The position numbers and the translations under genes are program-made. A stretch of 64,000 bases of DNA, taken from NCBI RefSeq assembly GCF_903970965.1, contig NZ_CAJCKW010000001.1, forward strand, positions 676,803 through 740,802. The letters run 5' to 3'. Positions within the stretch are counted from its first letter, which is position 1; each line of letters starts with the position of its first letter. Of this stretch, positions 41,388-60,560 are shown piece by piece. A model generated the notes under the pieces. The model had not been told where the DNA came from and searched no databases. It saw nothing but the letters and a program-made list of their open reading frames with translations. This stretch comes from Aureimonas sp. ME7 (GTDB lineage: Bacteria; Pseudomonadota; Alphaproteobacteria; Rhizobiales; Rhizobiaceae).

Positions 41388-44300
41388 ATGACGACCGATC
41401 TTGACCTAGCAAGGATCCATGCCGAAAACGGGGACCGCAGGGAGGGTTTCGAAGAGTTCTCAGCCCAAATCTTCCACCGACATGCGGTGCCAACGGGTTC
41501 CCGCTACGAACGGTATTCCGGAGTAGGGGGCGACGGCGGCGTGGAGGCGATCTGGCGGCTTCCGACTGGCAAGGTCATAGGCCTCCAGTCGAAGTTCTTC
41601 CTTCCTCTGAAAAGCGGTCACCTGGCCCAGTTGGAAAAGTCGCTCGACACCGCGCTCGACAACCATCCGGACCTCGAGACCTACGTCGTCACCCTGCCGT
41701 TCGATCCGACGCCTACGATCAAGGCCAGGAAAGGGGAGGGGCAGTCCGAAAAACTCGAGACGTGGCGGAAGTCCCTCATAGCCAGAGCCAGCGCGCGCGG
41801 CGTGAAGGTCGAAATCGAGTGGTGGTTCGCGAGTGAACTGAAGTCTCGCCTTCTCGGCATGGACAACCCTCAAGGTCGGATCCTCTACTGGTTCGGAACC
41901 GCTCACCTGAGCAAGGCGGCTCTTTCCGCCGCCGCGCGCGTATCAGAGGGGGTTGCCGGTCCGCGGTATTCGCCGAAACTCAAGTTGGGCACCGACGCCG
42001 GAGACACCTTGAAGGCGTTCGGTCTCGATCGCGACTGGACGGCGACCACGGCAGGTTGGACGGCAAGGTTGCAGTCGACGGTCGGCGTCTGGACGGACAG
42101 GCCCCCTCGTTCGCATCCGGCTCCCGCCGCCCTGATCCGGGCAGCCATGGAAGAGGCTGCGACCAGGTTTGCGGCAGTGGAGGACTTGAGCTTCGCGGAA
42201 CCCGACCGCGTCGCGTTGCTGGCACTTGCCGAGCGGACGCTTCCCGTTGCCCGATCCTTGGAGGCAGCACTCAAGGAGGAGTTCGACAGGACACATGGGC
42301 CGGGGAACGATACGGCCGGCTGGCGACAGTTTCAGGCCGCATACCAGGTGCGTTTCCCCGCTGCCGACCTCGACCACGCACGAGAGGCGTGTGCGCTGCT
42401 CGACGACATCGTCGCCTTTGCGGAAAGCTCGATGGCGAGGGCGGCCGGCGCAAACATTCTGTTGATGCGGGGTCCAGCTGGCATCGGCAAGACGCACACG
42501 ACCATCGACGCGGTGAAGGAGTGGGCGTCGGCTGGACGCGCCGCGCTGGCGTTACTCGGCCAGGAGATCGGGCTGGGCCAGGAACCTTGGGCCGTGATCG
42601 CAGATCGACTGGGTATCGGGGCCGCGACGACCAAGGCCGAGGTCATCGGCGCGTTGTCGGCATGTGCCGAAGGGACCGGCTCACCCTTCGTGATCATGAT
42701 CGACGCGGTCAACGAGACGCCCGAACGGAAACGCTGGCAACACTGGCTGCCCCAACTCAAGGTCGATCTCGCGGAAACGCCCATAAAGCTGCTTCTCACG
42801 TGCCGGGACATCTTCGTCGACGAAGCCCTTGGGGCAGCCGGCCTTGACCTCGTTTCCTTCACCCATGCGGGCTTCGCGGGACGGGAGTACGGCGCGGCCT
42901 ATGCGTTCGCGGCCTTCTACAAGGTCGGCCCCCCGGCCGAAGTGGTTGCCCAACCGGAGTTCGGCAATCCGCTTTTCCTGCATCTTGTCTGTCGCGCCGC
43001 GGTCAGCATGAACTGGGAGAGGGTTCCCGGGGGACGGGTCGGCTTGACCAAGCTGATCACGGCGATCCTGGAGGGCGCCAACGGCAGGGCAGCCGCATTG
43101 CTCGACTACGACGCACGCTTCGAGAACCCCGTACACGACGGCGCCTTGGCGCTCGCTCACGTCATGGGTCAGGAAAGCACTCGCGTCCTCCCGATCGCAC
43201 GGGCCCAAGAGATACTGAAGGGCGTTTGGCCCTCGGCCGCGGCGTCGCGTTCGCTCTTGCGCGCGATGGAGGAGGCCGACCTCGTCGCGCTCTCGCTCGA
43301 ACGTGGCGAACACGTGCTTCGGTTCGCGTTTGAGCGACTGGGCGACGTCCTGATCGCGCAAGCAAGCATCGATGGCCAGGACCGGGCGACCGTCGAGGCA
43401 CGATTCCTCTCCGGGGATCTGAGCCCGCTCTTTGCGACGTCCGGCAAGCTCGCCGAGCATGCGGGCCTCGTCCAGGCATACTCGATAGTTCTCCCGGAGA
43501 CCTTCGGCGTAGAGATTGCCGATCTTTTCGTTGCGTCGCCGGTCGATCGCGAGCTGACGTCCCTGGCGCTCGGAGTCCTGGCATGGCGAGACATCGACAG
43601 CTTCGGCGACACGACCTGGGTTTTGCGTCTCGGCTCGTTTGCCGATCTGGTCGAGACACTCGAACTCGTCCTGGCCGTCGCTGCCGTCCCGGACCACCCG
43701 TTGAACGCCGACTGGCTCGACGCGCAGTTGCGGGAATACCTGCCGATCGTCCGCGATGCGCTATGGACTTTGACCTTGAAGAAGGCTCGGGACCGCGGCG
43801 GGCCCGGCCACCAACTGGTCCGCATCGCACGGACGCAGGACCTCGAGGACATGTCGCAGGAATCGGCCGCGCTTCTGGGCGTCTTCCTGGCATGGTCCAC
43901 GGCAAGCGCGGACCTCCTCATCCGGGACGAGGCCTCGCATGCGCTGACGCGGCTGATGTCGGCGCAGGCCGTCGCCGCCCCGCTCCTTGATCGCTTCCTC
44001 GGCTACGACGACGATTTCATACGCGAACGATTGCTGAACAGCGTCTACGGGGTCGGACTTCTACGGAATGACGCGGCTTACTGGGGGGTGGTCGCCGACA
44101 TCGTGTTCGACCGCCTCTTCTCGTTGAGCAGGCCGCCCGAGAACGTGACGCTTCGGGATTTGGGAAGGCTCATTGTCAAGGAGGGCCTCGCGGCCGGCAC
44201 GATGTCGAGAGCGTTCGCTCCGGGCGTCGTCGACCCTCCCTACGCAAGCCCCTGGCCGCTGCGGCTGAAATTCTCCGATTGGAACGCGCTGATGGCGGCG

Positions 44301-45500
44301 CATCCCGATCTTCCTTTGAACCTTCAGCTTGGGGCGCGCCAGGCACCCGACTTCGCCCGCTACCGGGTCCAACGTGGCGCTGAGGCGTTCGACCTTGCCG
44401 CTGTCGGGCTGACCGTTGCGAACTTGAACCAATGGATCGTCGAGCAGATTCTCGCGATTGGCTACGACGGATCGCTCAAGCAAGCCTTGGGCTACGATGG
44501 GGAGCTCGTTCGGCAGCACGGACAGGAGCGCGGCGTGCCGAACAGGCACCGGCGTGTCAGCAAGAAGTACGAGTGGATCTTCCTGGCGCGCCTCCTTGGG
44601 TGGCTGCACGACAATGTCCCCCGAACGACCTCTTCATGGGACGCGCCCTCCGCCCCGACCGACCTCCAAGCCGTCGAACTCAGGACGCTTGACCCAACCG
44701 ACCTGCCGCAGGACGGCAGCGCTCCCATGTCGCACGAGGTGGTCGGCGGGTTCTTCGACTATGGTTCTCCGGGGAGCGGGGCATCAGATCCGAAGGGGTG
44801 GGTCGCGGGCCTTTCCGACAGCGACGACGTCGGGTTGATCGGGGAAGACTGGGTGCTGCTGGCCGGACAATCCAGAAAGCGGCACAGCCATCGGAAGACC
44901 GACCCGTCGCTGACCGAACGTCGTTTCGTGCGGGCCATGCTGGTTCCGGAACGCAGGATGACGGAGCTGAGAAAGGCGTATTCCCGATCCATTCCGATGC
45001 TGGACATCCCCGTCATGCACAAGCTGTACAAGGGGGAGTTTTCGGAGAGCGCAGCCTTCAGGGACCACGGTGGACAATGGCCGCTCGACTCTGGAGAGGC
45101 CGGCAGTTCCGCGTCGGTCATAGTCGACCGGTTCGACGGTCCGGAGATTCCGACGAGGCCGCTCTGGGCACCCGCGCCGGGGTTGGTCGCTTCCTGCGGT
45201 GCGCGGTGGGACGGCGCCCGCACCTGGATAGACGGCCGCTCCACGCCGATCGCTCATCACATGGGAGACGACGAGGACATCGCTCTCGTCTTCGACAGGT
45301 CGCGTCTCGTAGATTACCTGACCGCGACGAAGACCACGCTTGTCTGGATCGTATCGGAGAACCGACAGGCCTCGCTTGCGTCTGGCCTGTTGAGCACGGG
45401 CGACAGGCACGGGGCCTGGTCCTGGAAGGGGCGGAGACTGTCCAAGGTCGCGGAAGAGGCGGAGGTTCGTCATCTGGACGAGGAAGATGGCGCGTCATGA
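41388..45500 (+). CDS. Avs-like STAND NTPase with N-terminal PD-(D/E)xK nuclease domain
   Basis: About 1370 residues from ATG 41388 (an in-frame ATG at 41145 adds 81 residues of poor coding character). The N-terminus (about 10-160) looks like a Mrr/Cap4-type nuclease: FEEFSAQIF, then GVGGDGGVEAIW (D49, E53) and GLQSKFF (Q67, K69). A P-loop NTPase follows with Walker A GPAGIGKT (362-369, K368) and Walker B VIMIDAVNE (D439), then LLTCRD and a winged-helix-like region. The last 700 residues are helical, without recognised repeats, and probably the sensor. Nuclease-STAND-sensor architecture is that of AVAST (Avs) anti-phage proteins, which oligomerise on binding a phage protein and cut DNA. Assignment to a specific Avs type is not possible here. 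Confidence 0.78.
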   Translation: MTTDLDLARIHAENGDRREGFEEFSAQIFHRHAVPTGSRYERYSGVGGDGGVEAIWRLPTGKVIGLQSKFFLPLKSGHLAQLEKSLDTALDNHPDLETYVVTLPFDPTPTIKARKGEGQSEKLETWRKSLIARASARGVKVEIEWWFASELKSRLLGMDNPQGRILYWFGTAHLSKAALSAAARVSEGVAGPRYSPKLKLGTDAGDTLKAFGLDRDWTATTAGWTARLQSTVGVWTDRPPRSHPAPAALIRAAMEEAATRFAAVEDLSFAEPDRVALLALAERTLPVARSLEAALKEEFDRTHGPGNDTAGWRQFQAAYQVRFPAADLDHAREACALLDDIVAFAESSMARAAGANILLMRGPAGIGKTHTTIDAVKEWASAGRAALALLGQEIGLGQEPWAVIADRLGIGAATTKAEVIGALSACAEGTGSPFVIMIDAVNETPERKRWQHWLPQLKVDLAETPIKLLLTCRDIFVDEALGAAGLDLVSFTHAGFAGREYGAAYAFAAFYKVGPPAEVVAQPEFGNPLFLHLVCRAAVSMNWERVPGGRVGLTKLITAILEGANGRAAALLDYDARFENPVHDGALALAHVMGQESTRVLPIARAQEILKGVWPSAAASRSLLRAMEEADLVALSLERGEHVLRFAFERLGDVLIAQASIDGQDRATVEARFLSGDLSPLFATSGKLAEHAGLVQAYSIVLPETFGVEIADLFVASPVDRELTSLALGVLAWRDIDSFGDTTWVLRLGSFADLVETLELVLAVAAVPDHPLNADWLDAQLREYLPIVRDALWTLTLKKARDRGGPGHQLVRIARTQDLEDMSQESAALLGVFLAWSTASADLLIRDEASHALTRLMSAQAVAAPLLDRFLGYDDDFIRERLLNSVYGVGLLRNDAAYWGVVADIVFDRLFSLSRPPENVTLRDLGRLIVKEGLAAGTMSRAFAPGVVDPPYASPWPLRLKFSDWNALMAAHPDLPLNLQLGARQAPDFARYRVQRGAEAFDLAAVGLTVANLNQWIVEQILAIGYDGSLKQALGYDGELVRQHGQERGVPNRHRRVSKKYEWIFLARLLGWLHDNVPRTTSSWDAPSAPTDLQAVELRTLDPTDLPQDGSAPMSHEVVGGFFDYGSPGSGASDPKGWVAGLSDSDDVGLIGEDWVLLAGQSRKRHSHRKTDPSLTERRFVRAMLVPERRMTELRKAYSRSIPMLDIPVMHKLYKGEFSESAAFRDHGGQWPLDSGEAGSSASVIVDRFDGPEIPTRPLWAPAPGLVASCGARWDGARTWIDGRSTPIAHHMGDDEDIALVFDRSRLVDYLTATKTTLVWIVSENRQASLASGLLSTGDRHGAWSWKGRRLSKVAEEAEVRHLDEEDGAS

Positions 45501-47620: not shown

Positions 47621-49573
47621 TCAGGTCAGGGTGACCCTTGCCGTTTCGGAGAGCATGCTCGCAAACCGCTCCACCTCGTCGCGACGGCGCTCGATGATGA
47701 GCTTCGCCTCCCTCAGGCAACGCGAGAGGACGAGTTCGATCCGTTCGCCGACAATCGGATCGCCCCCCGCGCGGGATGCCGCCTCCGTCGCCGTGGCCGT
47801 CGGAACGGAGTGCAGCCGTTCACCGAACCCCATCGCGAACTCCGACTGGGCGACTAGTTGCGTCGCGCGCACGAGGTCGGCGTCGGCGGTGCCACCGGAT
47901 CCCACGCCCCGCGAGCCGAGGATCGTTTCCTCGGCGGCGAGGCCGGCGAGGAGAACCACCACGTTCGCCTCGAAGCTCTCGCGCGTCGCGTCGAACCCCT
48001 CGACGATCCGGAACTCCGTCCGGTGCTCGTTGCCGTGACGCATCCGCCGCCGAACTGTCGCTCCTACGGGGACGATGCCCGCCAGGGTGGCGAGTTCCAT
48101 CCCGACGACGACGTGCCCCGCCTCGTGGAGGCACAGGCGACGGAACGCCTCCGTGGATAGGTGGACGCCCCTTGGAACGGCCGCCCAAAGGTCCGCCTCC
48201 GACAACGGCCGCCGTTCCCGCCTGGCGGCGGCGCGAGCCTCGCGAACGAGCTGCGCCAGCGCCGCTCCCGATACCTCGCCCACCTCATCGGCCAGCATCG
48301 TGAGGTCGGCCTTGGGCAGTTCGCCGCGCAGGTGATGCTTGAGGATGCCGACCCTTCCGCCGATGTCGGGAAGGCGAATCTCGATGTGGCGCCCGAGACG
48401 GCCGGGCCGGAGCACGGCCGGGTCGATGACGGCGGGCTTGTTGGTCGCGCCGATCACGACGACGCCATCGCGTTGGGCCGCGCCGTCCAAACATTCCAAC
48501 AGCCCGTTGACGACTTGCCTCTGATAGGAAGCGTGGTCGCCGAGCGGCTCGTCCCTCGAGCCGACGGAGTCGAGCTCGTCGACGAACAGGACACAGGGCG
48601 CTGTCTTCCCGGCCTCGGCGAAGGCGGCCCGCATGGCCTTCAGCAAGTCTCCCAAATGACCGCGGGACTGCCAAGCGGCGACGGAATGCGAGTGCAGGGG
48701 CACCCCGCAGGATCCGGCCAGCGCCTTCGCGAAGAGCGTCTTGCCCGTCCCCGGTGGGCCATGGAGTAGCATGCCGTTCTCGATGTCCGACCACGGCAGC
48801 GAGCCCGCGCGGTACTCGACAAGGTCTGCGGCCAGCGCCAGCCCCCACCGCTGGGCCTCGCCCATCCCGGGTAGGTCCTCCAGGCGCTCGGGGACAACAT
48901 TCTTGCTCGCTCCGATGGACAGGGTCGCAGGCTTCTCGGCGTTCGACACCGCCAGCTTGGCGGGACCGCGTCTGCGACCGTCCTCGGGAGGATGCCTTCT
49001 CAGCCGTCCGGCGATCCGCCACATGCGGTCCGCCGTCGTGCCGGGACGGATGGCGAGGTTCAGGTATGAGATCGGCAGTCGCTCGAGCCAGGACACGAGC
49101 CTGTCGTCCGGATGGAAGCCCGCGAGGTCCCTGACGACGGCGGCGATGGCCTCGCGGCGACCGGCGACGCGGAGCACGGCGTCGGCCACCGTCGCGACGA
49201 CGCCCGGCACCTCCGTCCGCCGATGGCACAGCACGACCATCGGGCGCGTCGAAACGCTCACGTCGACGAGCAGGCGCTCGACGTATCCAGTCCGCTGGTT
49301 GGACGGGTCGGTCCAGTCCCGCCCGGAGGCGTTGATCTGGACGACGGACTTCCCGGTGCAACCGACGAGGTCGCTAACCGCGTCGCAGAGGACAGGGCCG
49401 TCGATGGGCTTGATGCCGTGGATCACGGCGAGGCTCGCCTCTCCGCCGAGGAGCCGATCACAACCACCGTCCCCAAGCGTCTGGTGGAGGAGGGCATCGG
49501 CGACCCGCGCCGACGGCGTCAGCCGTCCGGCCAGCGACGTCGGCATGTCGGAGAAGTCGAGACGGTCACGCAT
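47621..49573 (-). CDS. Soluble AAA+ ATPase / M41-type (FtsH-like) metalloprotease
   Basis: A 650-residue protein. After a 225-residue N-terminal region without membrane helices come the AAA+ motifs: Walker A GPPGTGKT (272-279), Walker B LFVDELDS (D332, E333), GATNKP and arginine fingers near R389-R395 (LRPGRLGRH). The C-terminal part has the zinc protease motif HEAGH (H483, E484, H487) and the FtsH-like AGLAAEETILG, GSGGTADADLVRAT. FtsH itself is membrane-anchored; this one is not. ATG 49573 overlaps the DUF6634 gene's last codons by eight bases. As last gene of the operon it may remodel or degrade a protein made by its neighbours or by the transposon; that is inference. Confidence 0.85.
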   Translation of the reverse strand: MRDRLDFSDMPTSLAGRLTPSARVADALLHQTLGDGGCDRLLGGEASLAVIHGIKPIDGPVLCDAVSDLVGCTGKSVVQINASGRDWTDPSNQRTGYVERLLVDVSVSTRPMVVLCHRRTEVPGVVATVADAVLRVAGRREAIAAVVRDLAGFHPDDRLVSWLERLPISYLNLAIRPGTTADRMWRIAGRLRRHPPEDGRRRGPAKLAVSNAEKPATLSIGASKNVVPERLEDLPGMGEAQRWGLALAADLVEYRAGSLPWSDIENGMLLHGPPGTGKTLFAKALAGSCGVPLHSHSVAAWQSRGHLGDLLKAMRAAFAEAGKTAPCVLFVDELDSVGSRDEPLGDHASYQRQVVNGLLECLDGAAQRDGVVVIGATNKPAVIDPAVLRPGRLGRHIEIRLPDIGGRVGILKHHLRGELPKADLTMLADEVGEVSGAALAQLVREARAAARRERRPLSEADLWAAVPRGVHLSTEAFRRLCLHEAGHVVVGMELATLAGIVPVGATVRRRMRHGNEHRTEFRIVEGFDATRESFEANVVVLLAGLAAEETILGSRGVGSGGTADADLVRATQLVAQSEFAMGFGERLHSVPTATATEAASRAGGDPIVGERIELVLSRCLREAKLIIERRRDEVERFASMLSETARVTLT

Positions 49574-49901
49574 GGCCGCCCCCGATCTCGGGAGCGCCCA
49601 GGAGCCAGAATCGGTTCTCGGACCGCACGTAGCCGGCGTCGAGCGCGACGACGCGGAGCGGCGAGGTGATGGCGTCGCGCCCGTCGCGGACGACAGGGTG
49701 ACCGGCGGGTCGGCCGCGCAGGCACGGGACCATGCGCAGCGCCGACGACCAGCCGGTCAGGACAGGCGCACCCGCCAACATGGCGCCGGACGGAGCGCGA
49801 TGGTCGCGCAGGTAACGGAGATCGCGCAGGAGGGCGGCCGTGCTGTCGATCTCGCGGTCGAGCTCGCTCGTCCCTGAATGCGAGGTTAGGAAGATAGGCA
49901 T
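49566..49901 (-). CDS. DUF6634-family small protein
   Basis: A 111-residue protein. An N-terminal helix (LDREIDSTAALLRDLRYLR) is followed by APVLTGW, RMVPCLRGRPAGHPVV, and YVRSENRFWLLG. I recall this order from the DUF6634 family of Hyphomicrobiales accessory genes. Function unknown. Start 49901 is chosen over 49937, which adds a basic stretch without a ribosome-binding site. It is translationally coupled to the AAA+ protease gene. Confidence 0.6.
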   Translation of the reverse strand: MPIFLTSHSGTSELDREIDSTAALLRDLRYLRDHRAPSGAMLAGAPVLTGWSSALRMVPCLRGRPAGHPVVRDGRDAITSPLRVVALDAGYVRSENRFWLLGAPEIGGGHA

Positions 49902-49959
49902 GGTGGTGGCCTTCGCATGGCCGCGTTCGAGCGGCACGGTACTGACGGAAAGGGTGGTG

Positions 49960-50568
49960 TCAGTCGGGGCGGCGTATCACCCTGCTGCGGGATCCGAGGG
50001 GTGTGTCCAGGTCGAGGTCGACGACACGGGCAAGCGCCAGCGACGCGACCGCCGCGATGGGCCGGGTCGTGTTCCTGAAGATCGCGAGGCAATCGCCGAG
50101 CGTGACGCTTCCCTCCTCGTCGAGGGCCGCCAGCAGGCGGACGCGGTCGTCGATCGACACCCGCCACCGGGCGTAGGGGAGGATGAGCTTGGCGTTCTCG
50201 AGACGGATGGGGTCGATGTCGTCCTGCGTGACGACGCGGACACGCCCCGTGCCGCAGGCCGGCTGCCTATCCCGCGTGTCGCCGCCAGCGTCCGGATGCT
50301 CGGACGCCAGAAGGTGCTCCGTTTCCGTCGCCCTATGGACGTCGAAAACGACCCCGGGGCGATCGGAGACGCCCGTCGAGGCCTGACGGCACGACCACCG
50401 ATCGACGTCCTCGTCCACGTCTAGGAGACGGGCGAGGTCGACGGCCAGCGGGGTGGGCAGGACGGCCTCGCCGACGCACCGGAGCGGCCGATAGGCTGCC
50501 GCGGTTCCCGTACGGGAACGCCCAATGGCGGACGCGGCGGGCAGGGAAAAGACCGATGACATGCGCAT
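49960..50568 (-). CDS. TnsA-like protein lacking catalytic residues (C-terminal domain clear)
   Basis: About 202 residues. The second half aligns by eye with the C-terminal part of the intact TnsA at 54.5 kb: RVVT, then N-(A/I), a W, LL-ALA, G-x-(V/M)-T-(L/V)-G, and V-x-DLD-x-P-x-x-x-S-x-(V/I), the winged-helix TnsA_C pattern. In the first half FDVHR stands where active TnsA has E-V-K-P, so the essential lysine appears replaced by histidine. It is likely non-cleaving. It is one of three transposase-derived genes in this operon. A second possible start is at 50562. Confidence 0.6.
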   Translation of the reverse strand: MRMSSVFSLPAASAIGRSRTGTAAAYRPLRCVGEAVLPTPLAVDLARLLDVDEDVDRWSCRQASTGVSDRPGVVFDVHRATETEHLLASEHPDAGGDTRDRQPACGTGRVRVVTQDDIDPIRLENAKLILPYARWRVSIDDRVRLLAALDEEGSVTLGDCLAIFRNTTRPIAAVASLALARVVDLDLDTPLGSRSRVIRRPD

Positions 50569-50853
50569 GCCTCCTGGCGGACGCACCACGGTGCCGTCCG
50601 CAAACCTCAAAAAGGTCTTGGGTGGTCAGCGTATGAAGGAGCGGCGGATCGGGACGCAGCCGGAAGCGAGGCTCATGGGCCTCGTCGTCGCCGGGTTAAG
50701 GGTGCGCCTCTCGATCATGCCGTCAGCCTAGGATGGTGGCCGGCGGCGAGTCAACACGGCGTGGTCGGTGGCGGACTAGATAACCTCCGGCCTGGCAACC
50801 CGTGTTCGACCGACGGCTCGACTTGCCGATGCTGCCCACATACGCCCCTGCGA

Positions 50854-51246
50854 TCAGCCCTCGGGGGAGGGGCCGGTTTCGCCCAACTTCATGACGGCGT
50901 CCCGGACCGTCGGCGCCTCGACATCGGGGCAGTCGACCATCACCGTTCTCGCCATCCCGGGCAGCGGCCAGGCGTCCGCATTCCGTCGCGCGTGCTTTCT
51001 CTTCCGTGCGCGTTCGTGCGTGGCAACAGCCGCCGGCCGTGCCGTCGAGAGCCGATCGGGCAAAACCTCTAGCCCGAGGATGGTCTTGGTGATGGGGCAC
51101 ACGTCGACGCGCATCGTCGCGCGTTCGACGGCCCGCCCGCTGCGGTCTTCGACCACGAACATTCCGATTTCGGTCCGGTGAAGAGCGCCCCGCCCTTCGG
51201 TGCGAGGAAGGTCGAGGCGGACAGAGGTCCTGAGGATGGAATGCAT
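50854..51246 (-). CDS. Stand-alone RNase H-fold (rve/TnsB-like) domain, catalytic residue missing
   Basis: A 130-residue protein that aligns with the DDE catalytic core of TnsB/TniA transposases. HRTEIGMFVVEDRSGRAVERA matches the FDETP...YDR...GRP segment of TnsB, then D48-V...TILGLEVLP matches VDLFSGGIVGFYLGF, and LPGMARTVMVDCPD matches IPKLITFDN. D105 holds the place of the second catalytic aspartate (TnsB D372), but H23 stands where the first (TnsB D287) should be, and there is no third acidic residue. No TnsB DNA-binding or C-terminal regions are present. ATG 51246 follows GAAGGACACGACG. Probably a domesticated, inactive transposase core. Confidence 0.6.
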   Translation of the reverse strand: MHSILRTSVRLDLPRTEGRGALHRTEIGMFVVEDRSGRAVERATMRVDVCPITKTILGLEVLPDRLSTARPAAVATHERARKRKHARRNADAWPLPGMARTVMVDCPDVEAPTVRDAVMKLGETGPSPEG

Positions 51247-51350
51247 CGTCGTGTCCTTCGGGAGTGGCGCGTGTGGCCGTGTTCGGGAGGTGGCGGACGG
51301 TCGGCGGATCCTTCGAGATCGCCGACGCGCCGGGGGCGGGATGCCTCGGC

Positions 51351-52052
51351 TCAGGCTCCGCGGGGATCCGGTCGCCAGACCAGCAGTCCGGTGACCGGAT
51401 CTCGGTCGAGCTTGCACCGGAAAGCCATCAGGATGCCCGTCAGCATCGAACGGGCGAAGAAGGTGTCGCCGCCCTGCCAAGGTACCCAGAGGCCGAGCCT
51501 GTCGGCGATCCGGAGGACAATGCCCGGCACCGCGCTTGCCGATCCGTCGTCGGGGGAACGGGGCGGAAGTCCCGCCGCCACCGTCGCCTCGGCGGCCGAG
51601 GCGACGCGCAGGAGAGGCCAGCCGCACGTCGACTCCCTGATCTCCCGCTCCGTCCAGATCTCGAACGCGGCGCCCCTTGCCGCGCACTCCAGCTCAATCC
51701 TCGGACGCCTGCCGGAGAGTTCGGGATCGCGCAGAAGCAGCGCGTGCGGCCGGACGGAACGGTAGACCTTGGACCCGTCGGTCATGACGGCTAGGAGGTC
51801 GGGAGTGTACCTGCGGCGGCGTCCGTCCGTGCCGTCCCGCCAGACGAAGGTCTCCGGCTGCGCGCGTATCGAGGCGACGAACGGATCGGCGGCCATCTGG
51901 GCGAGGAGATCCGCCCCGAGAAGGCTTTCGAACGGCACGAGACCACCTCCCTTCGGGGTGGGAATGAAGCCGCACCGGGGACGGTCCCTTCGGCGGTCGA
52001 CGGACGCATGGTTGGTTGTCCTGACGGATGGGCGGGGCATGACCTTATGCAT
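51351..52052 (-). CDS. TnsA-like endonuclease-fold protein with altered active site
   Basis: A 233-residue protein. FESLLGADLLAQM, AQPETFVW, RRRYTPDLLAV follow the TnsA endonuclease order (E of FES and D of TPD retained), but the place of the catalytic E-V-K-P is taken by R-S-V-R-P, so lysine and its partner are lost. The second half (EIWTEREI ... ADRLGLWVP ... LTGILMAF) follows the TnsA C-terminal domain. AAAGGAACGCAC precedes ATG 52052. It differs from the intact TnsA at 54.5 kb in nearly all non-motif positions, so the copy is old or acquired separately. Confidence 0.65.
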   Translation of the reverse strand: MHKVMPRPSVRTTNHASVDRRRDRPRCGFIPTPKGGGLVPFESLLGADLLAQMAADPFVASIRAQPETFVWRDGTDGRRRRYTPDLLAVMTDGSKVYRSVRPHALLLRDPELSGRRPRIELECAARGAAFEIWTEREIRESTCGWPLLRVASAAEATVAAGLPPRSPDDGSASAVPGIVLRIADRLGLWVPWQGGDTFFARSMLTGILMAFRCKLDRDPVTGLLVWRPDPRGA

Positions 52053-52158
52053 GTGCGTTCCTTTCGCGGTGACAAAGGGGGAATGGTTGATGCGGACGCG
52101 CGGGATCGTTGCCCCGTCGGAGGCGGGACGCAGACGCGTTTCGACGTTGGGTAAATCC

Positions 52159-52386
52159 CTAGAGCGGAGTCGCTGGGGGCGGGTGCCTGCCACTGGCCGG
52201 AGGTGGCAGCACCTCGACGCTCAAGGTGTCCCCCCTCGCGACGACCCTGGCCCTGAGCCAATTCCAGATAGTGGGGGCGCAGGTGCACCGTCTGCTCGCC
52301 GCGCCTTTACGGCCGCGCGCCGCATGTCGGTCCGCGCGGCCGGGAACCGGGGACGAAGCGGTGGCCTTCGGTTCGCCCTTCTCCAT
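52159..52386 (-). CDS. Small basic hypothetical protein
   Basis: A 75-residue basic protein with ACAGGAGAACGCATC just before the ATG, a good start. One helix-turn region (TIWNWLRARVVARGDTLS) is visible; the ends are proline-rich. It is the second gene of the leftward block, between the hypothetical protein and the TnsA-like gene. Not recognised. Confidence 0.45.
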   Translation of the reverse strand: MEKGEPKATASSPVPGRADRHAARGRKGAASRRCTCAPTIWNWLRARVVARGDTLSVEVLPPPASGRHPPPATPL

Positions 52387-52460
52387 GATGCGTTCTCCTG
52401 TTGGAAATGCGGGGACGTTCTGGTCAGGCGGCCTCGGGCCAGCCGCGGGCGATGGCAACC

Positions 52461-53078
52461 TCAGCGGGCGCGGATATTTCCCGTCCGCCCTCGGACGGGT
52501 ACGCATCGACGCTCGTTAGTGGGCCACCGCAGGCTGTAGGCCTGCCTGCGGCCGTGCCCGACCCCCTCGACGACAAGTTCCGCAATCCGTGCGGCCAATG
52601 CGTGCACACGGGGGCCGGGGCGGCCCGTCTCGAGTGGAGCTTGCTCGGCGTCGTCAAGCTCGGGAAGCGTCAGGGTCGGCACGGGCGCATGCGTCGTCCA
52701 GCCCATATACGGATCGGCAGGTGCGTGATCCTGCAACCTCACGTGGAACGCGACACGTCCGGGCAGGTGGAAGCCGGGCATCGGGCTGCGCAACGCGACG
52801 ACCTCAAAGGCGTCCTCGGCCCATTGGCTCAAGGGGTCTCCGGCCTCGAGAGGGCGGTCGAGCTTAAGGCACAGCTTCCTCAACGTCGGGGCCGCGAAAG
52901 GACCGGCGTCGACGCCGCCCCAGGATTCAGGCATGCTGACATGGTAGGGAATCCCCCAGCGGCCCGGCGGAGAGCGGAACGTCCGCAACCCGTAGGCTTC
53001 GAGTCCATGGACGGCCAGTCGGTACGCGAGGTCGGCGCCCGGTGAGCCGGGAGGCGAGATGAAGGCTATCAAGGGCAT
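52461..53078 (-). CDS. Hypothetical protein, first gene of the leftward block
   Basis: A 205-residue protein (PLIAFISPPGSPGADLAYRLA at the start, then MPESWGG, LPGRVAFHVRLQDH) with no recognised domain. It appears well formed, with alternating strand and helix. It starts 95 bases from the divergent XRE gene, so both promoters share that space and the XRE protein is the natural candidate to control this operon. Confidence 0.5.
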   Translation of the reverse strand: MPLIAFISPPGSPGADLAYRLAVHGLEAYGLRTFRSPPGRWGIPYHVSMPESWGGVDAGPFAAPTLRKLCLKLDRPLEAGDPLSQWAEDAFEVVALRSPMPGFHLPGRVAFHVRLQDHAPADPYMGWTTHAPVPTLTLPELDDAEQAPLETGRPGPRVHALAARIAELVVEGVGHGRRQAYSLRWPTNERRCVPVRGRTGNIRAR

Positions 53079-53173
53079 GTTTGCGACGGATCCTACGAGG
53101 AACAAGAAGACCGACGACCCACCGCGCGGCGTCTGCCGCACGGCGCATTCTCATGTGGATTGGATGCTGCCCG

Positions 53174-53554
53174 ATGTTGACTAAGTCAGACATCAAGTCC
53201 GACTCAGAGTCAACTGTGATTCTACGACAGGTTGTCCCGGAGGAGGGCGACGACGCGTCGGCGGCCATCGACGGGATCGCTTGTCGGGGCGCCAGGGCCA
53301 TGCTTGGCGTCAGCCAGGCGGAGCTCTGCGAGCGCGCAGGATGCTCGCGAAGCTCCTTGAACGACTTCGAGAACGGCCTGCGCGTGCCACGCGCGGCGGG
53401 AGCCCGGCGGATCGCGGAGGCGCTCGTCGCGTTGGGAGCCGTCTTCATTCCGCACGACGGCAGGTTTGCCGTCGCGGTGCGTCCCGACTCCCACCGCGAG
53501 CGGACCGCGCGAGCGAGGTCCTTCGCGGGCAGGGACGGCGGAGGGGCGAAATGA
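53174..53554 (+). CDS. XRE/Cro-CI-type HTH regulator
   Basis: A 126-residue protein with one helix-turn-helix domain at about residues 38-95 (ARAMLGVSQAELCERAGCS, then RSSLNDFENGLRVPR and IAEALVALG). It is divergent from the leftward seven-gene block and likely represses it and itself. A dyad GTTGACT (53176-53182) / AGTCAAC (53208-53214) overlaps the first codons and could be its own operator. The stop overlaps an ATG (ATGA, 53551) of a 34-codon frame ending at 53655, too short to judge. Confidence 0.8.
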   Translation: MLTKSDIKSDSESTVILRQVVPEEGDDASAAIDGIACRGARAMLGVSQAELCERAGCSRSSLNDFENGLRVPRAAGARRIAEALVALGAVFIPHDGRFAVAVRPDSHRERTARARSFAGRDGGGAK

Positions 53555-54326: not shown

Positions 54327-54491
54327 GGCGTCCCCCGTGCCCAACGCGGGCCGGGGGATCAGGCCACCGACGGGACCCTGCGTCAATCCCCCGGCCCGCT
54401 GCTTCCAAAGGAATCGCACGCCGGGTCCTTGACTGCCGTCGGACCCCTTCCACCTGGGGTCTTGGGAATCCAGACTCCCATGGAGGACATC

Positions 54492-55583
54492 ATGGACGAA
54501 TTCTTGGGTGAGTTCCTTTCGAGGGAGCTGGCCGCGCTGCCGGAAACGATGCGGAGGCGGCCCGAGGCCGTCGCGCCGCGGGAACCCGACAGGTTCTGGG
54601 AGGCCGCCCCCGGCGTTCCCTGCGTGGTCGAATGGGTGAGGCCGGAACTCGCGCGCGAGTTCCCCGGCGTGCCGACGCGGGTGCCGGGGCGCTCGTCCCG
54701 GTCCTGGACGCGCGGCTGGCAGACGAGGACGTTCCTCCAGAAGACGGGACGCGTCGCTCGCGGCGCCTCCCGCTGGGAAAGCCGTCACGCTCTGGACGTC
54801 GACTTCGACGTCGAAGCCGCCGCGATGTGCGAGCAGCCGATGGCCATCCGGATGCCCGACGGCAGCCGCCACCTGCCGGACGCGTTCGTTTGGATGCGTC
54901 GCGGGCCTCATGAGATCCGTGAGGTGAAGCCGGAAAGCGACGCGGTGGAGCAGGAAGGACGCTGGAGCGCCATCGGCGGTAGCGTCGCCGCGCTCGGCTA
55001 CGGTTACCGCGTCGTCACGGACACCCGGCTCGCGTATCCCCCGCGCGTCGCCAACATCGACGCATTCATGTCCCACCGCCACGCGGAGGTGCCCGGCGAC
55101 TGGGTGCTGAACGAGATGTGGCGGGCGCTCGCGTCGGGCCCGATGACGGTGGGCGCCTTCCGTGCCCGGTTCCCCGAACTCGCTACAAAGCAGCTTCACG
55201 CGCTCGTGCGGCTCGTCTTCATCGGCGTGACGGATCTCGACCGCCCCTTCGACGACGACTCGACGATCGTGCGCCAGCGCCGCGACATACGCAGGGTCGG
55301 GGCAGCCTTCCGGAGCGACTGCCGTCCTGCGGGTCCCGAGGGGGAGGGAGGCATGGGCGCCGAACGTTTCGTCGTCGGGCAGCCGCTTCTCGTGAACGGC
55401 GTGCCCGTCGTACTCCGGCGCGGGGCGGGCAACGATGCCACGAAGTGGGAAGTGCGGGACCGAAACGGGGACCGTGTCCGGTTGCTCTCGGGCCGCGACC
55501 TTTCCGAGGCATGGGAACGGGGCGAGCTCCTCTACGACCGCAACGGCGGAACACCCGTTCGCGGGGGGGAGGAAACACGATGA
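54492..55583 (+). CDS. tnsA: TnsA transposon endonuclease with extra C-terminal module
   Basis: A 363-residue protein. The TnsA nuclease site is complete: E96 (WESRHALDVDFD), D130 (LPDAFVW) and E144-V-K146 (REVKPES). The winged-helix C-terminal domain extends to about residue 270. Residues about 292-355 are extra and match the N-terminus of TnsB (GQ-x-LL, GVP, WEV-x-x-RN, GELL). A strong ribosome-binding site GGGGGAGGGAGGC precedes an internal in-frame ATG at 55353 that would make this module alone. In Tn7, TnsA cuts the 5' strand ends while TnsB cuts the 3' ends, giving cut-and-paste transposition. ATG 54492 has GGAGGACATC before it. The stop overlaps the tnsB start. Confidence 0.88.
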   Translation: MDEFLGEFLSRELAALPETMRRRPEAVAPREPDRFWEAAPGVPCVVEWVRPELAREFPGVPTRVPGRSSRSWTRGWQTRTFLQKTGRVARGASRWESRHALDVDFDVEAAAMCEQPMAIRMPDGSRHLPDAFVWMRRGPHEIREVKPESDAVEQEGRWSAIGGSVAALGYGYRVVTDTRLAYPPRVANIDAFMSHRHAEVPGDWVLNEMWRALASGPMTVGAFRARFPELATKQLHALVRLVFIGVTDLDRPFDDDSTIVRQRRDIRRVGAAFRSDCRPAGPEGEGGMGAERFVVGQPLLVNGVPVVLRRGAGNDATKWEVRDRNGDRVRLLSGRDLSEAWERGELLYDRNGGTPVRGGEETR

Positions 55584-57667
55584 GGAGAATCCAATTCAAG
55601 TCAGGTCAGCGCCTCCTGTTTCACGGCGTGCCAATAACGCTCAAGCGCAGGCTGGACCGAGATCCGGAGGAATGGGAGGTCGAGAACCGCAACAGGCGCG
55701 AGATCGAGGTCCGCTCCCGGCGGGTCCTCGACATCGCCCTCCACCAGGGCGAATTGCTCGACGACAGCGAGCTCCCGCCGTCCAAGAAGAAGTACCGGGG
55801 GACGCGTGCCATATCGGATCTGTCGCCGCGGATCCAGCGTCAGGTGCGCTACGAGAAGATGGTCATCCGGCTCGTCGCGGAACGCACGGGCGAGGGGTTC
55901 AAGACGTCGAAGGACGCCGACACGGGCGAGATGAGGCTGGCCGCCGTCCTAAAGGAGGTGGCGGCCGAGGCGGGGATGATCTGCTTCGGCAAGGAGAAGA
56001 AGCTCGGCAAGTCGCAATACTACGAATACTGCAACAAGCACGCCGAAGCGATAGACGCCGACGACTACGCTGGCGGATACAGCAAGCGCGGACGGCGGGA
56101 CCAGATGGGCCCCGGCGTCAGGACCCTCGTGGTCAGGACGATCGAGGAGACCGTCGAGGAGTTCAAGAACAAGCCGAAGGGGCGGGGGCATCAGTTGCTG
56201 ACCCGCCGCATACTCGACGACCGGATCGTCACGGCGGTGGAGGAGGAGAGGAGGCACAACCCCGGCGTCACGCTCCGGGTGCCGAGCGATGCGACCGTTT
56301 ACCGGATCGTGAGGGACGAGATTAACCAGCACGACTGGGACCTCGCCACGAAGGGGCGGACGCTCACCGACGCGGCCTACCGCAGGCCGGGCCGCCTCCC
56401 GAAGGTCCTGACGCATCCGCTGCAATGGTGCCACTTCGACGAGACGCCGTGTCCCATCTACCTGTACGACAGGTTTTCAAAGCTTCCCCTTGGACGACCG
56501 TACCTTGCTTGGATCGTCGACCTCTTCTCGGGCGGGATCGTCGGCTTTTATCTGGGTTTCACGCCGCCGGGCGACCTCGTCATCGCGCAGACGCTAAAAC
56601 ATGCCTGTCTGCCCAAGGCGTACATGGCCGATCTCTATCCAGGGATCGACACGCCTCTTCTGCTGGCCGGCATTCCAAAACTCATCACCTTCGACAACTC
56701 GTTGCAGGCACACGGCAACAGCATCCAGCAGATCTGCGGCGACTTGGACATCTTGTATGATTTTACCAAGCCCCGCGCACCATGGATGAAATCACTCGTG
56801 GAGCGGATGTTCAAGATGCTCGAGGAGGAGTTGCTTCGACACCAGCCGGGATATGTCTTCCCCGCGGCGTGGAAGATACCGAAGAAAGATTACGATCCCC
56901 AGACGACGGCGATGATGGACTTCAATGACTTCCTTTGCATCCTGCACAAGTGGATCGGAAGGCGCGTTAACGGCCTCTCCCGCCAGAGCAAGCCCAGCCC
57001 GAACGCGAAGTGGATCGAGGGTTGCGCGATCGCCGAACCCGAGTTCGTCGCGAATACCGCTGACTTGGAGGCGCTCTTCGGGATCGTCCGCGAGGGCAGG
57101 CGCCTCGACGAGAGCGGCGTGCAGTACGAGGGCCTCGCATATTACTCGGACGAAGTCGACCTCGAGCGGCATCTGCATGGCGCGAGGCAGAAGGTCGCCA
57201 TCAAGGCGAACCCTTTGAGCATCCGCCGCATTCATGTTCGCGGACGCGACAAAAGCTGGATCCCGGTCAAGACTGACGCGCATCCGGAGTGGCCGCGCCT
57301 CGACCTGCACGTTCTCAAGCTCCTGAACAAGCAGTCGCGCATGCGGTACGGCGTCGAGACGATGGAGACGCGGGTGCATTCCTTCCGCGCCATCCAACAG
57401 GACATGGCCATCGGCTACGACGACGGGATGTCGGCCGCCAACTCGGCACGGGCCGCCAGGGCGCTCGGCATCGGTACGCCGCTGCTCTTCCACGGCATCG
57501 GCCACGACGGCGCGATCCCGCCCGCGCCGTCCAGCCCGGTCCGGCTCCCCGCCCCGGCTCCGACGCCGCGACTCGCGGCGCCCCCTGCTTCCCTGGATGC
57601 GCACGTTACCGCCCTCCCGACGCCGCGTCGGGCGATCCCCACCTTTAAGACGGACAGCTCCCTGTGA
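55580..57667 (+). CDS. tnsB: TnsB DDE transposase
   Basis: A 695-residue Mu/Tn7-type transposase. The N-terminal module (6-64) resembles the end of TnsA. Helix-turn-helix DNA-binding segments occupy about 85-270. The integrase core carries D287 (CHFDETP), D372 (ITFDNSL) and E408 (KSLVERMF), and a Mu-C-like beta barrel follows (about 540-620). A proline-rich tail (610-690) is the likely TnsC contact. It binds the transposon ends and catalyses strand transfer. ATG 55580 overlaps the tnsA stop (ATGA). Confidence 0.93.
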   Translation: MRRIQFKSGQRLLFHGVPITLKRRLDRDPEEWEVENRNRREIEVRSRRVLDIALHQGELLDDSELPPSKKKYRGTRAISDLSPRIQRQVRYEKMVIRLVAERTGEGFKTSKDADTGEMRLAAVLKEVAAEAGMICFGKEKKLGKSQYYEYCNKHAEAIDADDYAGGYSKRGRRDQMGPGVRTLVVRTIEETVEEFKNKPKGRGHQLLTRRILDDRIVTAVEEERRHNPGVTLRVPSDATVYRIVRDEINQHDWDLATKGRTLTDAAYRRPGRLPKVLTHPLQWCHFDETPCPIYLYDRFSKLPLGRPYLAWIVDLFSGGIVGFYLGFTPPGDLVIAQTLKHACLPKAYMADLYPGIDTPLLLAGIPKLITFDNSLQAHGNSIQQICGDLDILYDFTKPRAPWMKSLVERMFKMLEEELLRHQPGYVFPAAWKIPKKDYDPQTTAMMDFNDFLCILHKWIGRRVNGLSRQSKPSPNAKWIEGCAIAEPEFVANTADLEALFGIVREGRRLDESGVQYEGLAYYSDEVDLERHLHGARQKVAIKANPLSIRRIHVRGRDKSWIPVKTDAHPEWPRLDLHVLKLLNKQSRMRYGVETMETRVHSFRAIQQDMAIGYDDGMSAANSARAARALGIGTPLLFHGIGHDGAIPPAPSSPVRLPAPAPTPRLAAPPASLDAHVTALPTPRRAIPTFKTDSSL

Positions 57668-58824
57668 TGCCCAAACCATCGCCGAAAATTGACCTCGCCG
57701 CGATCCCGAGGAACCGGATCCGCGCCGTCGTGGCGCGGCGCCCCGCCCGACCGGCGCCAAGGTCCCGCGACGCCTACTGGACGTCGCGGGACGCCCTCCG
57801 AAGGCTTTACGTCGCCCATACCCTCTTCGACGGGGTCCTCACGCGCGTCGTCGACCGCATCGAGGAGAACGAGGGTTACGGGCAGGGGTTGCCGGGCATG
57901 CTGGTCTGCGGCCAGCCCGGCGCCGGAAAGTCCACGATGGTCAAGAAGCTCCGGGAGCGATTCCTTCGTGTCGAAGACGGCGTCGAACTCAAGCTCGACG
58001 ACGGGACCGCGGCGGTCTGCGACCACGTTCCGGTTGTGTTCGTCGAGTGTCCGACCAAGCCGACCGAGCTTTCGGTCCTCACGACGATACTGAAGAGCCT
58101 CGGCGATCCACTTTGGAAAAACCGCAAGCGCGACGATGCGCTGGACGCCGTCAAAACCTTCCTGCACTACGCGGGAACGCTGGCGATCGTCGTGGACGAG
58201 GCGCAAAGACCCACCGACCGAAAGGGGAAGCTGACCCAAGGCGACATCGCAACCCTGTTCCAGACGCTCCACGACGAGGGCATCGTGGTGCTCCTTTTCG
58301 GCCTCGGCCGCGCACAGGCACTGATGGTCGAGGACTCGCAGGTCGAAAGGCGGTGGAGCGCTCCGATACGCCTGGCGGAGTACGCTTGGGGTGACGTTGC
58401 CCTTTCCGGCGACGACGCTCCGGAGTCCAGGGCAACCTTCATGGGGCTCCTGGACGCCATGGCCGGCGCGGTGACGCTCGAATGGGAAGACGGCATCGAC
58501 TTTCAATCGGAGGAGGTCGCCTTCCTGTTCTACTACGCGTCCCGCGGGGTGCCCGGCCTCTTGAAGAAGCTGCTGCTCGGCACGGTCGACATCGCGAAGG
58601 GCGACCGGGACCAAGTCATAACGCGATCGACGTTGGCAAGGGCGTTCGATGCCGAGTTCCTGCGCCGCAAGCCGGGTACCGCCCTTCAGAACCCCTTCGC
58701 CGCAAGCTTCCGGGTCGCGCAGCCGCCGGCGCTGCCGGACGACAACGAAGTGCTCTACAAGGCCCCGTCGCCAACCAAGAAGCAGAGGCAGGCGTCGCTG
58801 ACAGAAAGCCTGACAGTGTCATGA
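57667..58824 (+). CDS. tnsC: TnsC AAA+ transposition regulator
   Basis: A 385-residue AAA+ protein. Walker A GQPGAGKS (82-89, K88), Walker B AIVVDEAQRP (D177, E178) and a sensor motif LFGLGRAQ are present, and the length fits TnsC/TniB-type ATPases. It polymerises on target DNA and links the target selector (TniQ) to the transposase. GTG 57664 or ATG 57667 could start it; both overlap the tnsB stop. Its own stop overlaps the tniQ start (ATGA, 58821-58824). Confidence 0.92.
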   Translation: MPKPSPKIDLAAIPRNRIRAVVARRPARPAPRSRDAYWTSRDALRRLYVAHTLFDGVLTRVVDRIEENEGYGQGLPGMLVCGQPGAGKSTMVKKLRERFLRVEDGVELKLDDGTAAVCDHVPVVFVECPTKPTELSVLTTILKSLGDPLWKNRKRDDALDAVKTFLHYAGTLAIVVDEAQRPTDRKGKLTQGDIATLFQTLHDEGIVVLLFGLGRAQALMVEDSQVERRWSAPIRLAEYAWGDVALSGDDAPESRATFMGLLDAMAGAVTLEWEDGIDFQSEEVAFLFYYASRGVPGLLKKLLLGTVDIAKGDRDQVITRSTLARAFDAEFLRRKPGTALQNPFAASFRVAQPPALPDDNEVLYKAPSPTKKQRQASLTESLTVS

Positions 58825-60560
58825 GGCTATTCGTCCGACCTGCCCCCGTCGCGGGGGAGACGCTTGACCTTCTCCTCGTCCGGACCTGCGAGGCGAACCG
58901 CGCGGGTTCGCCCGTACGCCTCGTCCGAGCGCTCGGGCTTGCACCCGACTGCCGGACACGGCGAAGGAACCTGGCGGCGCTCGCCGACGCTCTCGGCTGC
59001 CCCCAGGGCCCAGCGTCTGTTGAGCGTTGCGCACGCTGGCTCGACCCTGCCAGCGGCCTCGTCACGGTCGGCGACCTTGCGTTGCCCTCCGCTGTGCTGG
59101 GGCCCTCCCTCGGTCGCGTCTGCCCGCGTTGCGTCGCGGAGGGAACCGTCTTCGACCGCGCTTGGGAAATGAAGGGGGTCGTGGCCTGCGTGCGTCACGC
59201 CACCTGGCTGGCGGACGCCTGTAATGGATGCGGACACGCCGTCGGCCGGAACCGGGCACGCGTCGGTGCATGCCGTTGCGGGCGCTCTTTTGCCGAGGGC
59301 GCTTGCCCAGCACCGGAGGCTGCGGTGTCGATGGTGCGCAGCGTTCTGGAAGGCCACGCGCTCGGGACCCATCCTCTTCCCGTCGGCGAGGCCGCGAGGC
59401 TGGTCTGGTTTGCGGGGGTGCGCTCGCACGGTGCCCTGCGCAGGGGCGCCACGATCGACAGGCCGGGCATCAGGGACACGTGGGACCTGCTCGAACCCGT
59501 CGCCGGGATCCTCGACGAATGGCCACTCCGGTTCGTCGAATGGGTCGTGGCAAGGGGTAGGAACGGCGCGCGGGGCGGCAGCCTCTACGAACACCACCCG
59601 CTTGCGCTGGACGTATTGCGCGAGTTCGGCGGAAGCTGTCCGGCGATCCCCGGCGCCCTTGCCGACGCGTTCGCCGCCGACGCCTCGGCGCCGCCGATCC
59701 GGACGAACTCGCGCTTCTACAGGGAGGGCGCCGCGACGCTCGACTCCTCCGGGGCGGCGAGGATACTCGGCGTCGCTCCGCCGACCGTCGCGCGAAGGAT
59801 CGGCGACGGGACGCTGCCGGGCCGGGTAGCCGGAGCGGGAAGGCGCAGGGCGGTCGCCGTCAGCCGCGAGCATGCAGTCCTCGCCTCGCGGGCCGCCGTC
59901 CCGCCCGACAATGTCGCCTCCGGGTTCGGCCTGTCGCGCGCACAGATGGCAGGCCTGCGAACGGAATCCGGCTCCTCGCCCAAGTCGAAGGACGACATGG
60001 AGCGGCTGGTCCGGCAACTGGACGGACGCGCCGGGAGCGGACCGCCGCCGAAGGACGCCATCGCGCTCGCCAACGTCTCCTCCTTGCGGGGGCCCACCCT
60101 CCTCACCGCGGTCGGCCTCGTGATGGAGGGCAGGCTGCGGTGCTGGTCGTCGGCCGCGCACAAACCCGCGTTCCGACGCCTCCTCGTTTCCCGATCCCAG
60201 CTCCTTCGGGAAGCGGGTGGCGGGTTGAGCGTCAGGGAAGTGGCCGGGTGCCTCCGCGTGCCGACCCGCCTTGTCCCCTTGCTCGTCGGGGCGGGCTGCC
60301 TCGAGGCTTCGGGACCGCCCGGCCGCCGCCCGATCACCCGCCTAGCCGTTGCGAGATGCGCGGAGCGGTATGCCACCGCGGGCGAGATTGCTGCGTCGGC
60401 GCGCACGAATACGCGGACGCTGCTCGCCCGGCTCGAGGAGGCGAAGGTCGAGCCCGTCATCCCCTCCGACCCAGCGTCCGGCATTTCCTCCGTGTGGCGG
60501 CGGGACGAGATCGAGGCCGTAGCTGGCAGACTTCGGCCGCGACGCCGGAGGTCCCGGTGA
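58821..60560 (+). CDS. tniQ: TniQ/TnsD-family target selector 1
   Basis: A 579-residue protein with the TniQ zinc-binding pattern in its first 155 residues: C101-x2-C104, C123-x2-H126, C134-x2-C137 and C151-x-C153. Three or more helix-turn-helix-like segments follow (GAARILGVAPPTVARRI, REVAGCLRVPTRLV, GEIAASARTNTRTLLARLEE), as in long TnsD proteins that read a specific attachment site. The N-terminus is shorter than in TniQ2. It directs TnsC to a chosen target. Fourth gene of the coupled tns operon. Confidence 0.88.
   Translation: MRLFVRPAPVAGETLDLLLVRTCEANRAGSPVRLVRALGLAPDCRTRRRNLAALADALGCPQGPASVERCARWLDPASGLVTVGDLALPSAVLGPSLGRVCPRCVAEGTVFDRAWEMKGVVACVRHATWLADACNGCGHAVGRNRARVGACRCGRSFAEGACPAPEAAVSMVRSVLEGHALGTHPLPVGEAARLVWFAGVRSHGALRRGATIDRPGIRDTWDLLEPVAGILDEWPLRFVEWVVARGRNGARGGSLYEHHPLALDVLREFGGSCPAIPGALADAFAADASAPPIRTNSRFYREGAATLDSSGAARILGVAPPTVARRIGDGTLPGRVAGAGRRRAVAVSREHAVLASRAAVPPDNVASGFGLSRAQMAGLRTESGSSPKSKDDMERLVRQLDGRAGSGPPPKDAIALANVSSLRGPTLLTAVGLVMEGRLRCWSSAAHKPAFRRLLVSRSQLLREAGGGLSVREVAGCLRVPTRLVPLLVGAGCLEASGPPGRRPITRLAVARCAERYATAGEIAASARTNTRTLLARLEEAKVEPVIPSDPASGISSVWRRDEIEAVAGRLRPRRRRSR

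Follow-up and report, generated by a model that had tools for sequence, protein, structure and literature searches.

Closest described systems

TnsA of the transposon Tn7 contacts both TnsC and TnsB, and is made up of a PD-(D/E)xK-type N-terminal domain and a C-terminal winged helix. ClpX, which resets the post-integration complex of Mu, is a host protein that is not known to use a transposase-derived adaptor and has a separate partner protease, ClpP. Here we describe a locus of Aureimonas sp. ME7 (Alphaproteobacteria, Rhizobiaceae) in which homologues of TnsA that have lost catalytic residues (hereafter "dead" versions) are encoded with an FtsH-like protease and an XRE-family regulator, beside a Tn7-like element. 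It occupies positions 47621-53554 of a 64-kb window, namely the whole stretch of DNA analysed, which forms the final 64 kb of contig NZ_CAJCKW010000001.1 (positions 676,803 to 740,802) in an assembly of 4.38 Mb. Originally predicted to be one operon, the region consists of two modules of real genes, TnsA2-(DUF6634)-M41 (47621-50568) and XRE-S7-TnsA1*-RNH (50854-53554).

Tn7 TnsA (Pfam: PF08722; PDB: 1F1Z, 1T0F, 9BW1) has been solved bound to residues 504-555 of TnsC (PDB: 1T0F). TnsA2 resembles it by a full-length structural match and TnsA1* by a Pfam match, but TnsA2 lacks the catalytic Glu and Lys, TnsA1* has S-x-R for E-x-K, and neither is the tnsA product of the adjacent operon. The FtsH/M41 proteases (PDB: 2CE7, 3KDS) likewise join an AAA+ module with Walker motifs to an HExGH zinc protease domain, whereas M41 lacks their membrane anchor, as far as can be predicted, and has a different, alpha/beta N-terminal domain. 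A possible functional parallel is the AAA+ unfoldase ClpX, whose proposed role is removal of the post-transposition complex of CRISPR-associated transposons (CASTs) (PMC12326709). In that report, deletion of clpX lowered phage propagation ~200-fold in a selection with evolved PseCAST TnsB, and in human cells wild-type TnsB gave on average 4-fold more insertion with ClpX; disassembly of the post-transposition complex by ClpX is a hypothesis cited there. The CvkR/Arc-type regulators of type V-K CASTs are, like XRE, small DNA-binding regulators encoded beside a Tn7-like element, but they are of the MerR or ribbon-helix-helix type; the passages seen of the paper describing them (PMC9938897) contain no dead transposase subunit, and "Xre" as a whole word is absent from its main text.

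Literature searches found no description of a dead-TnsA/DUF6634/M41 or an XRE-dead-TnsA composition, in keeping with the original prediction that the system is undescribed, and nothing on DUF6634 or on TnsA with a PIN domain in Tn7-like elements. A search on Tn7-like elements and FtsH gave, in the text excerpts returned, a single unrelated match, and none of the matches listed for soluble FtsH and mobile elements was relevant. The whole words "protease" and "FtsH" are absent from a cargo survey (PMC8649781), which lists PIN as cargo, and PMC10293859, in which "protease" occurs 5 times, makes no mention of such a dead-TnsA/protease module in the 12 of 17 places shown. Taken singly, TnsA, FtsH-like proteases and XRE regulators are familiar types of protein; what is new is the transposon-linked pair of a dead TnsA and a protease.

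A dead TnsA encoded directly before a predicted soluble AAA+ protease

TnsA2-(DUF6634)-M41 is a conserved set of genes clustering with Tn7-like transposons. The dead TnsA2 is tentatively read as an adaptor that would bring the AAA+/M41 protease to the transposition complex; we consider this a serious proposal, while allowing it somewhat less than an even chance. TnsA2 is best read in this way because it has a dead TnsA fold, lies directly before an AAA+ protease gene and clusters with Tn7-like elements.

TnsA2 (49960-50568, minus strand; 202 residues) has the TnsA fold, including the C-terminal winged helix, and lacks the catalytic Glu, Asp and Lys. Its full-length AlphaFold model matches the TnsA structures 1t0f, 1f1z and 9bw1 over both domains, which removes for this protein an objection foreseen in the original prediction, namely that models might fail to match TnsA; profile alignment also relates it to TnsA. 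Across 24 aligned TnsA2 sequences, the catalytic Glu is absent from all 23 with a residue at that column (one is gapped) and Lys occurs at its paired column in none, while the catalytic Asp is found in 19, yet is absent from the window version. The earlier claim that both TnsA-fold products of the locus lack the Lys holds for each of them, TnsA1* reading Y-R-S-V-R-P at this site; the motif assigned to TnsA2 has to be corrected, the Lys column falling in L-L-A-S-E-H in the profile alignment and not in F-D-V-H-R.

M41 (47621-49573, minus strand; 650 residues) scores over the Pfam cut-offs for both the AAA and the Peptidase_M41 domains and matches FtsH in Foldseek (E 5.9e-27). The columns of Walker A, Walker B, H-E-x-G-H and D566 do not vary in any of the 20 aligned relatives, and no FtsH-type N-terminal transmembrane anchor is predicted, the maximal 19-residue hydropathy in the first 220 residues being 1.14 (up to 1.87 in one relative). 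The claim of an intact AAA+/M41 protease is thereby borne out, and the protein is predicted to be soluble. The predicted model of the N-terminus is an alpha/beta domain, and the score against the FtsH equivalog, 201 bits, is far under its cut-off of 600. The start of M41 is overlapped by 8 nucleotides by a gene for a small DUF6634-like protein (49566-49937, minus strand; 123 residues). Its assignment to DUF6634 (PF20339) is only partly sustained: the window protein scores 17.4 bits, below the cut-off of 27, and that of locus L041 scores 23.1, whereas a Bosea relative passes with 49.9.

Open frames are seen for all six leftward genes (M41, the DUF6634-like gene, TnsA2, RNH, TnsA1* and S7) and for the divergent XRE, and each was chosen by a simple codon-usage caller; this was trained on six window genes including M41, so that its support for M41 is circular. 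A seventh leftward gene of the original prediction, S6 (52159-52506), is not supported, being neither chosen by the caller nor given room before TnsA1* in A. phyllosphaerae.

Phyletic distribution, linkage to TniQ and selection

Of the 394 genomes searched in the family, 57 contain a match to TnsA2. M41 follows TnsA2 directly, in the same orientation, at 32 of 40 fetched loci (29 of the 34 with >3 kb of downstream DNA), and the DUF6634 hidden Markov model finds a match downstream in 14 of the 40. A stop codon is present in just 2 of 72 TnsA2 homologues, which are nearly all intact; this and the conserved order of the genes are contrary to the picture of decaying homologues without gene order against which the original prediction was set. 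At two loci (L079, L080) TnsA2 and DUF6634 are paired but no M41 was recognised after them, L080 being cut by the start of its contig.

The link of TnsA2-M41 with TniQ is statistically strong but not absolute. TniQ is found in 49 of 57 TnsA2-positive genomes, compared with 7 of 50 further members of the family (Fisher p 1.6e-14), and TniQ frames of at least 500 residues in 42 of 57 versus 1 of 50, six of the seven TniQ-positive others holding only frames of less than 500 residues. Among genomes of at least 4.5 Mb the corresponding counts are 40 of 48 versus 5 of 21 for TniQ, and 35 of 48 versus 0 of 21 for long TniQ. On the level of gene position, a TniQ gene is no more than 10, 15 and 30 kb away at 19, 25 and 35 of the 72 TnsA2 loci (expected: 0.45, 0.67 and 1.34), and no more than 10 and 30 kb away at 10 and 20 of the 32 M41-verified loci; none of 33 loci of the control gene HsdR shares a contig with TniQ. 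Six of eight plasmid records with M41 hold TniQ, 8 to 100 kb away. Four Rhizobium plasmids (L026, L028, L029, L030) have a metallophosphoesterase gene after TnsA2-M41, and L028 and L030 also hold genes of cyclic oligonucleotide-based antiphage signalling (CBASS) or Kiwa-like systems.

Outside the family, a search for TnsA2 in 205 class-level genomes gave 2 matches other than its own. These were not counted: both lie ~1 kb from TniQ and overlap matches of the TnsA1 alignment, and are hence probably ordinary TnsA. TniQ itself is found in just 5 of these 205 genomes. In the searches of order and class with the TnsA1 alignment 7 candidates were scored per genome, so that TnsA1* may be less rare there than it seems.

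The ratio of nonsynonymous to synonymous substitution (dN/dS), estimated by pairwise NG86, is 0.22-0.27 for M41, 0.24 for TnsA1*, 0.29 for DUF6634 and 0.34-0.41 for TnsA2, in pairs 57-76% identical. These four are under purifying selection, as the original prediction had suggested for the TnsA homologues. The ratio is 0.36 for XRE at 50% identity and 0.62 for RNH and S7, whose pairs are just 31-34% identical with synonymous sites near saturation.

A second module and repeated loss of the TnsA catalytic site

TnsA1* (51351-52052, minus strand; 233 residues) passes Pfam PF08722 with 28.2 bits (cut-off 26.5), in line with a TnsA N-terminal fold. It keeps the catalytic E and D, and its catalytic set is incomplete in having S-V-R for the E-V-K of intact relatives. 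It belongs to a TnsA lineage other than that of TnsA2 (25 proteins were found, one of them encoded in the window), with the catalytic site apparently lost twice: the TnsA1 tree requires the dead state to have arisen two times, and a topology with one dead clade is rejected (approximately unbiased test, p 0.028, to be taken with caution given the long branches). In both cases the dead protein is encoded in the vicinity of tns genes and of a conserved XRE gene, and the resident tnsA is only distantly related to TnsA1*. Among TnsA relatives with an altered E-x-K, a protein of the Sphingobium plasmid pTB1 (L019, 11926-12606), encoded directly before tnsB, reads Q-V-R, and three others (P0022, P0023, P0025) read Q-V-R or E-A-M; these changes suggest that there may be elements whose own TnsA is inactive.

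RNH (50854-51246, minus strand; 130 residues) is, as claimed earlier, homologous to the RNase-H core of TnsB (hhalign probability 94.0, E 1.3e-7), but the first catalytic Asp aligns with Gly28 instead of the proposed His23, relatives reading EID or EFD where the window protein reads EIG in an alignment of four. The second Asp is kept in the window and replaced by Asn in P0027, and the part that would hold the catalytic Glu is missing, leaving a fragment with neither a DDE triad nor the DNA-binding domains. The uncharacterised S7 (52461-53141, minus strand, its start being 53141 or 53078) adjoins XRE, has no Pfam match, and has a counterpart at the same position in L040 (comparison of the two sequences alone gives E 1.2e-5, with 30% identity over 76 residues). 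XRE (53174-53554, plus strand), which scores over the Pfam HTH_3 (helix-turn-helix) cut-off, is divergent from S7 and faces the tns operon. It is 50-61% identical to the XRE proteins of five other dead-TnsA1 loci in local alignments of 62-122 residues. A conserved operator was sought upstream of six XRE genes and discarded, the best shared 16-mers being little better than in shuffled sequence.

A. phyllosphaerae shows the mirrored layout tniQ-tnsC-tnsB-tnsA, XRE, S7, TnsA1* (74% identical), RNH, and also encodes M41 of the window's kind, on a contig equal in length to one that bears a TnsA1* (P0031, P0007); L041, like the window, holds both modules within 16 kb. The two modules do not, for all that, form the single seven-gene system originally predicted. 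Within the fetched stretches of the 40 other TnsA2 loci, TnsA1* and RNH are found in none and the window's XRE lineage in 3, and L021, L022 and L042 have XRE and a TnsA1-like gene with no TnsA2-M41 beside them.

In a further version of the dead-TnsA1 module, found at L021, L022, L041 and L042, the gene between XRE (7.7 kb distant in L022) and the tns genes encodes a TnsA1-like protein whose catalytic site is degraded, and a PIN-domain gene comes next (dead TnsA plus PIN: L021, 13636-15017; L022, 15130-16562; L041, 9111-10520; L042, 3936-5137). The two frames overlap by 4 nucleotides in three of the four loci, and the PIN domain passes the Pfam cut-off everywhere but in L041, where its score falls just short. 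The partner of the dead TnsA1 is thus a PIN-domain gene elsewhere and a TnsB RNase-H fragment in the window; in the RNH lineage XRE sits between the dead TnsA and the tns operon, while in the PIN lineage the dead TnsA is on the tns side of XRE. A dead TnsA and PIN beside a conserved XRE has the look of a toxin-antitoxin pair derived in part from a transposase subunit. No PIN was found among the scanned window genes, and hence no VapBC-like arrangement of PIN beside an antitoxin.

On the whole, three dead-TnsA lineages near Tn7-like elements, TnsA2 distinguished by profile and TnsA1* with RNH and the TnsA1-like protein with PIN by the tree, point to repeated domestication of this transposase subunit.

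The neighbouring Tn7-like element

The genes rightward of XRE, all on the plus strand, run tnsA-tnsB-tnsC-tniQ in the order typical of Tn7-like elements, confirming the adjacent operon of the original prediction, and are followed by a second tniQ (61326-63191). The tnsA gene (54480-55583, start uncertain, frame open to 55583) keeps E-V-K-P; its product aligns with TnsA in its N-terminal part and scores 40.7 bits against NCBIfam TnsA_like, below the cut-off of 110. For tnsB (55580-57667) the Pfam rve and Mu-transpos_C matches are both below cut-off, and tblastn finds matches to the tnsB of other loci. TnsC (57667-58824) and tniQ (58821-60560) pass the cut-offs for TniB and TniQ, respectively. 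The right side of the element may be missing because the window edge is the contig end. Upstream of tnsA, repeats that might form TnsB-site arrays were not above shuffled sequence in 13 of 14 regions; in that of L021 there was one copy more than in shuffles, of a GC-only motif.

Proposed function and alternatives

Under the adaptor reading, TnsA2 would have kept the docking surfaces of TnsA for TnsC and TnsB, and M41 would then unfold or degrade one of these two proteins. Such action could reset the post-integration complex, as host ClpX has been proposed to do for type I-F CASTs, and might also cap transposase levels. In the XRE-S7-TnsA1*-RNH module, the dead TnsA and the dead TnsB fragment may compete with the active subunits and so damp transposition.

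Several observations weigh against an adaptor dedicated to Tn7-like elements. The Foldseek matches of TnsA2 to TnsA have E-values of 0.011 and 0.064, none being at or below 0.001, and are not significant by E alone; a search of PDB sequences gave no match up to E 1. Since the 72 TnsA2 rows extend down to E 5.8e-4, a few of them may be ordinary TnsA. The position null for the clustering with TniQ (20,000 simulations, with a maximum of 8 loci within 30 kb) assumes uniform placement, and the general clustering of mobile genes is controlled by HsdR alone. No TniQ is present on the contig of 31 of the 72 loci, one of these (G105 C1) being on a contig of 5.2 Mb; among the eight M41 plasmid records, four have TniQ 42-100 kb off and two lack it. 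TnsA2-M41 is therefore not strictly bound to tns genes. Its side and orientation relative to them vary, and no transposon ends were recognised around the module in the window, where the contig stops at the edge. M41 genes occur near tns genes with no recognised TnsA2 beside them at L140 and, to be counted here, at L020 and L032. Several plasmid copies of TnsA2-M41 are near defence-type genes. Finally, a profile built from 4 PIN seeds finds a PIN gene near 12 of the 40 TnsA2 loci (e.g. L087, L103 and L105; E 3.6e-63 in L087 and 6.6e-49 to 7.7e-24 in the other 11), which the adaptor model leaves unexplained; in L087, an XRE of the window's lineage is beside the PIN gene.

The main rival explanation, which we regard as quite possible if less than probable, is that TnsA2-DUF6634-M41 is an anti-phage or abortive-infection cargo of Tn7-like elements and plasmid islands, with the TnsA fold as sensor and the protease as effector. 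The plasmid copies, near CBASS genes and Kiwa-like, CHAT and S8 peptidase genes, fit cargo; in the window, an Avs2-type defence gene (41388-45500, plus strand; PADLOC E 3.8e-190) lies ~2 kb from M41; and the PIN genes near TnsA2 loci point the same way. Tn7-like elements hold much defence cargo, according to PMC8649781. The AAA domain of M41 also scores against IetA in PADLOC, but this match is limited to that domain and no IetS was found among 10 scanned window proteins. Ordinary cargo would, moreover, not be expected in most genomes with long TniQ, as the counts of 42 of 57 and 1 of 50 would require, and a sensor derived from a transposase subunit is more easily explained if its target is transposition proteins.

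It is unlikely that the modules serve to block rival Tn7-like elements, with the dead TnsA entering foreign transpososomes, poisoning end cleavage and directing the protease there. A dominant-negative effect is to be expected of dead paralogues of a required subunit, and the distance between the resident tnsA and TnsA1* means that the dead version does not have to suit the element beside it; but several TnsA2-positive genomes have more than one TniQ gene, suggesting that rival elements are not kept out in practice.

We give little credence to the XRE-dead TnsA-PIN genes being a toxin-antitoxin or addiction pair, with the dead TnsA as antitoxin and with PIN swapped for the RNH fragment in the window and A. 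phyllosphaerae. The position of PIN after the dead TnsA, the short frame overlaps and the PIN scores described above would suit it, but the scanned window genes lack PIN, and RNH is a TnsB fragment and not of the PIN fold. Least probable of all, and disfavoured here, is that the genes are decaying remnants of older elements: the weak constraint on RNH and S7, the loss of different catalytic residues in different RNH relatives and the two TnsA2 rows with stops would agree with decay, but are outweighed by intact frames, invariant protease motifs, conserved gene order and the low dN/dS of TnsA2, DUF6634, M41 and TnsA1*.

Implications

Taken to its full extent, the adaptor reading leads to a picture that we hold to be less likely than not, in which Tn7-like transposons would carry their own reset-or-destroy machine. 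A domesticated dead TnsA would recognise the transpososome and pass on TnsB or TnsC to an FtsH-type protease of the cytosol dedicated to this task, and a second, repeatedly evolved dead TnsA beside XRE would serve as a built-in brake. To our knowledge, the clearing of stable post-integration complexes and the low copy number of Tn7-like elements are largely an open question, which also concerns genome editing with CASTs, tools that in their wild-type form are helped by ClpX. If true, the reset-or-destroy machine would be the first counterpart of ClpX to be linked to an element, and an adaptor and protease linked to the element would make complex clearance directly testable.

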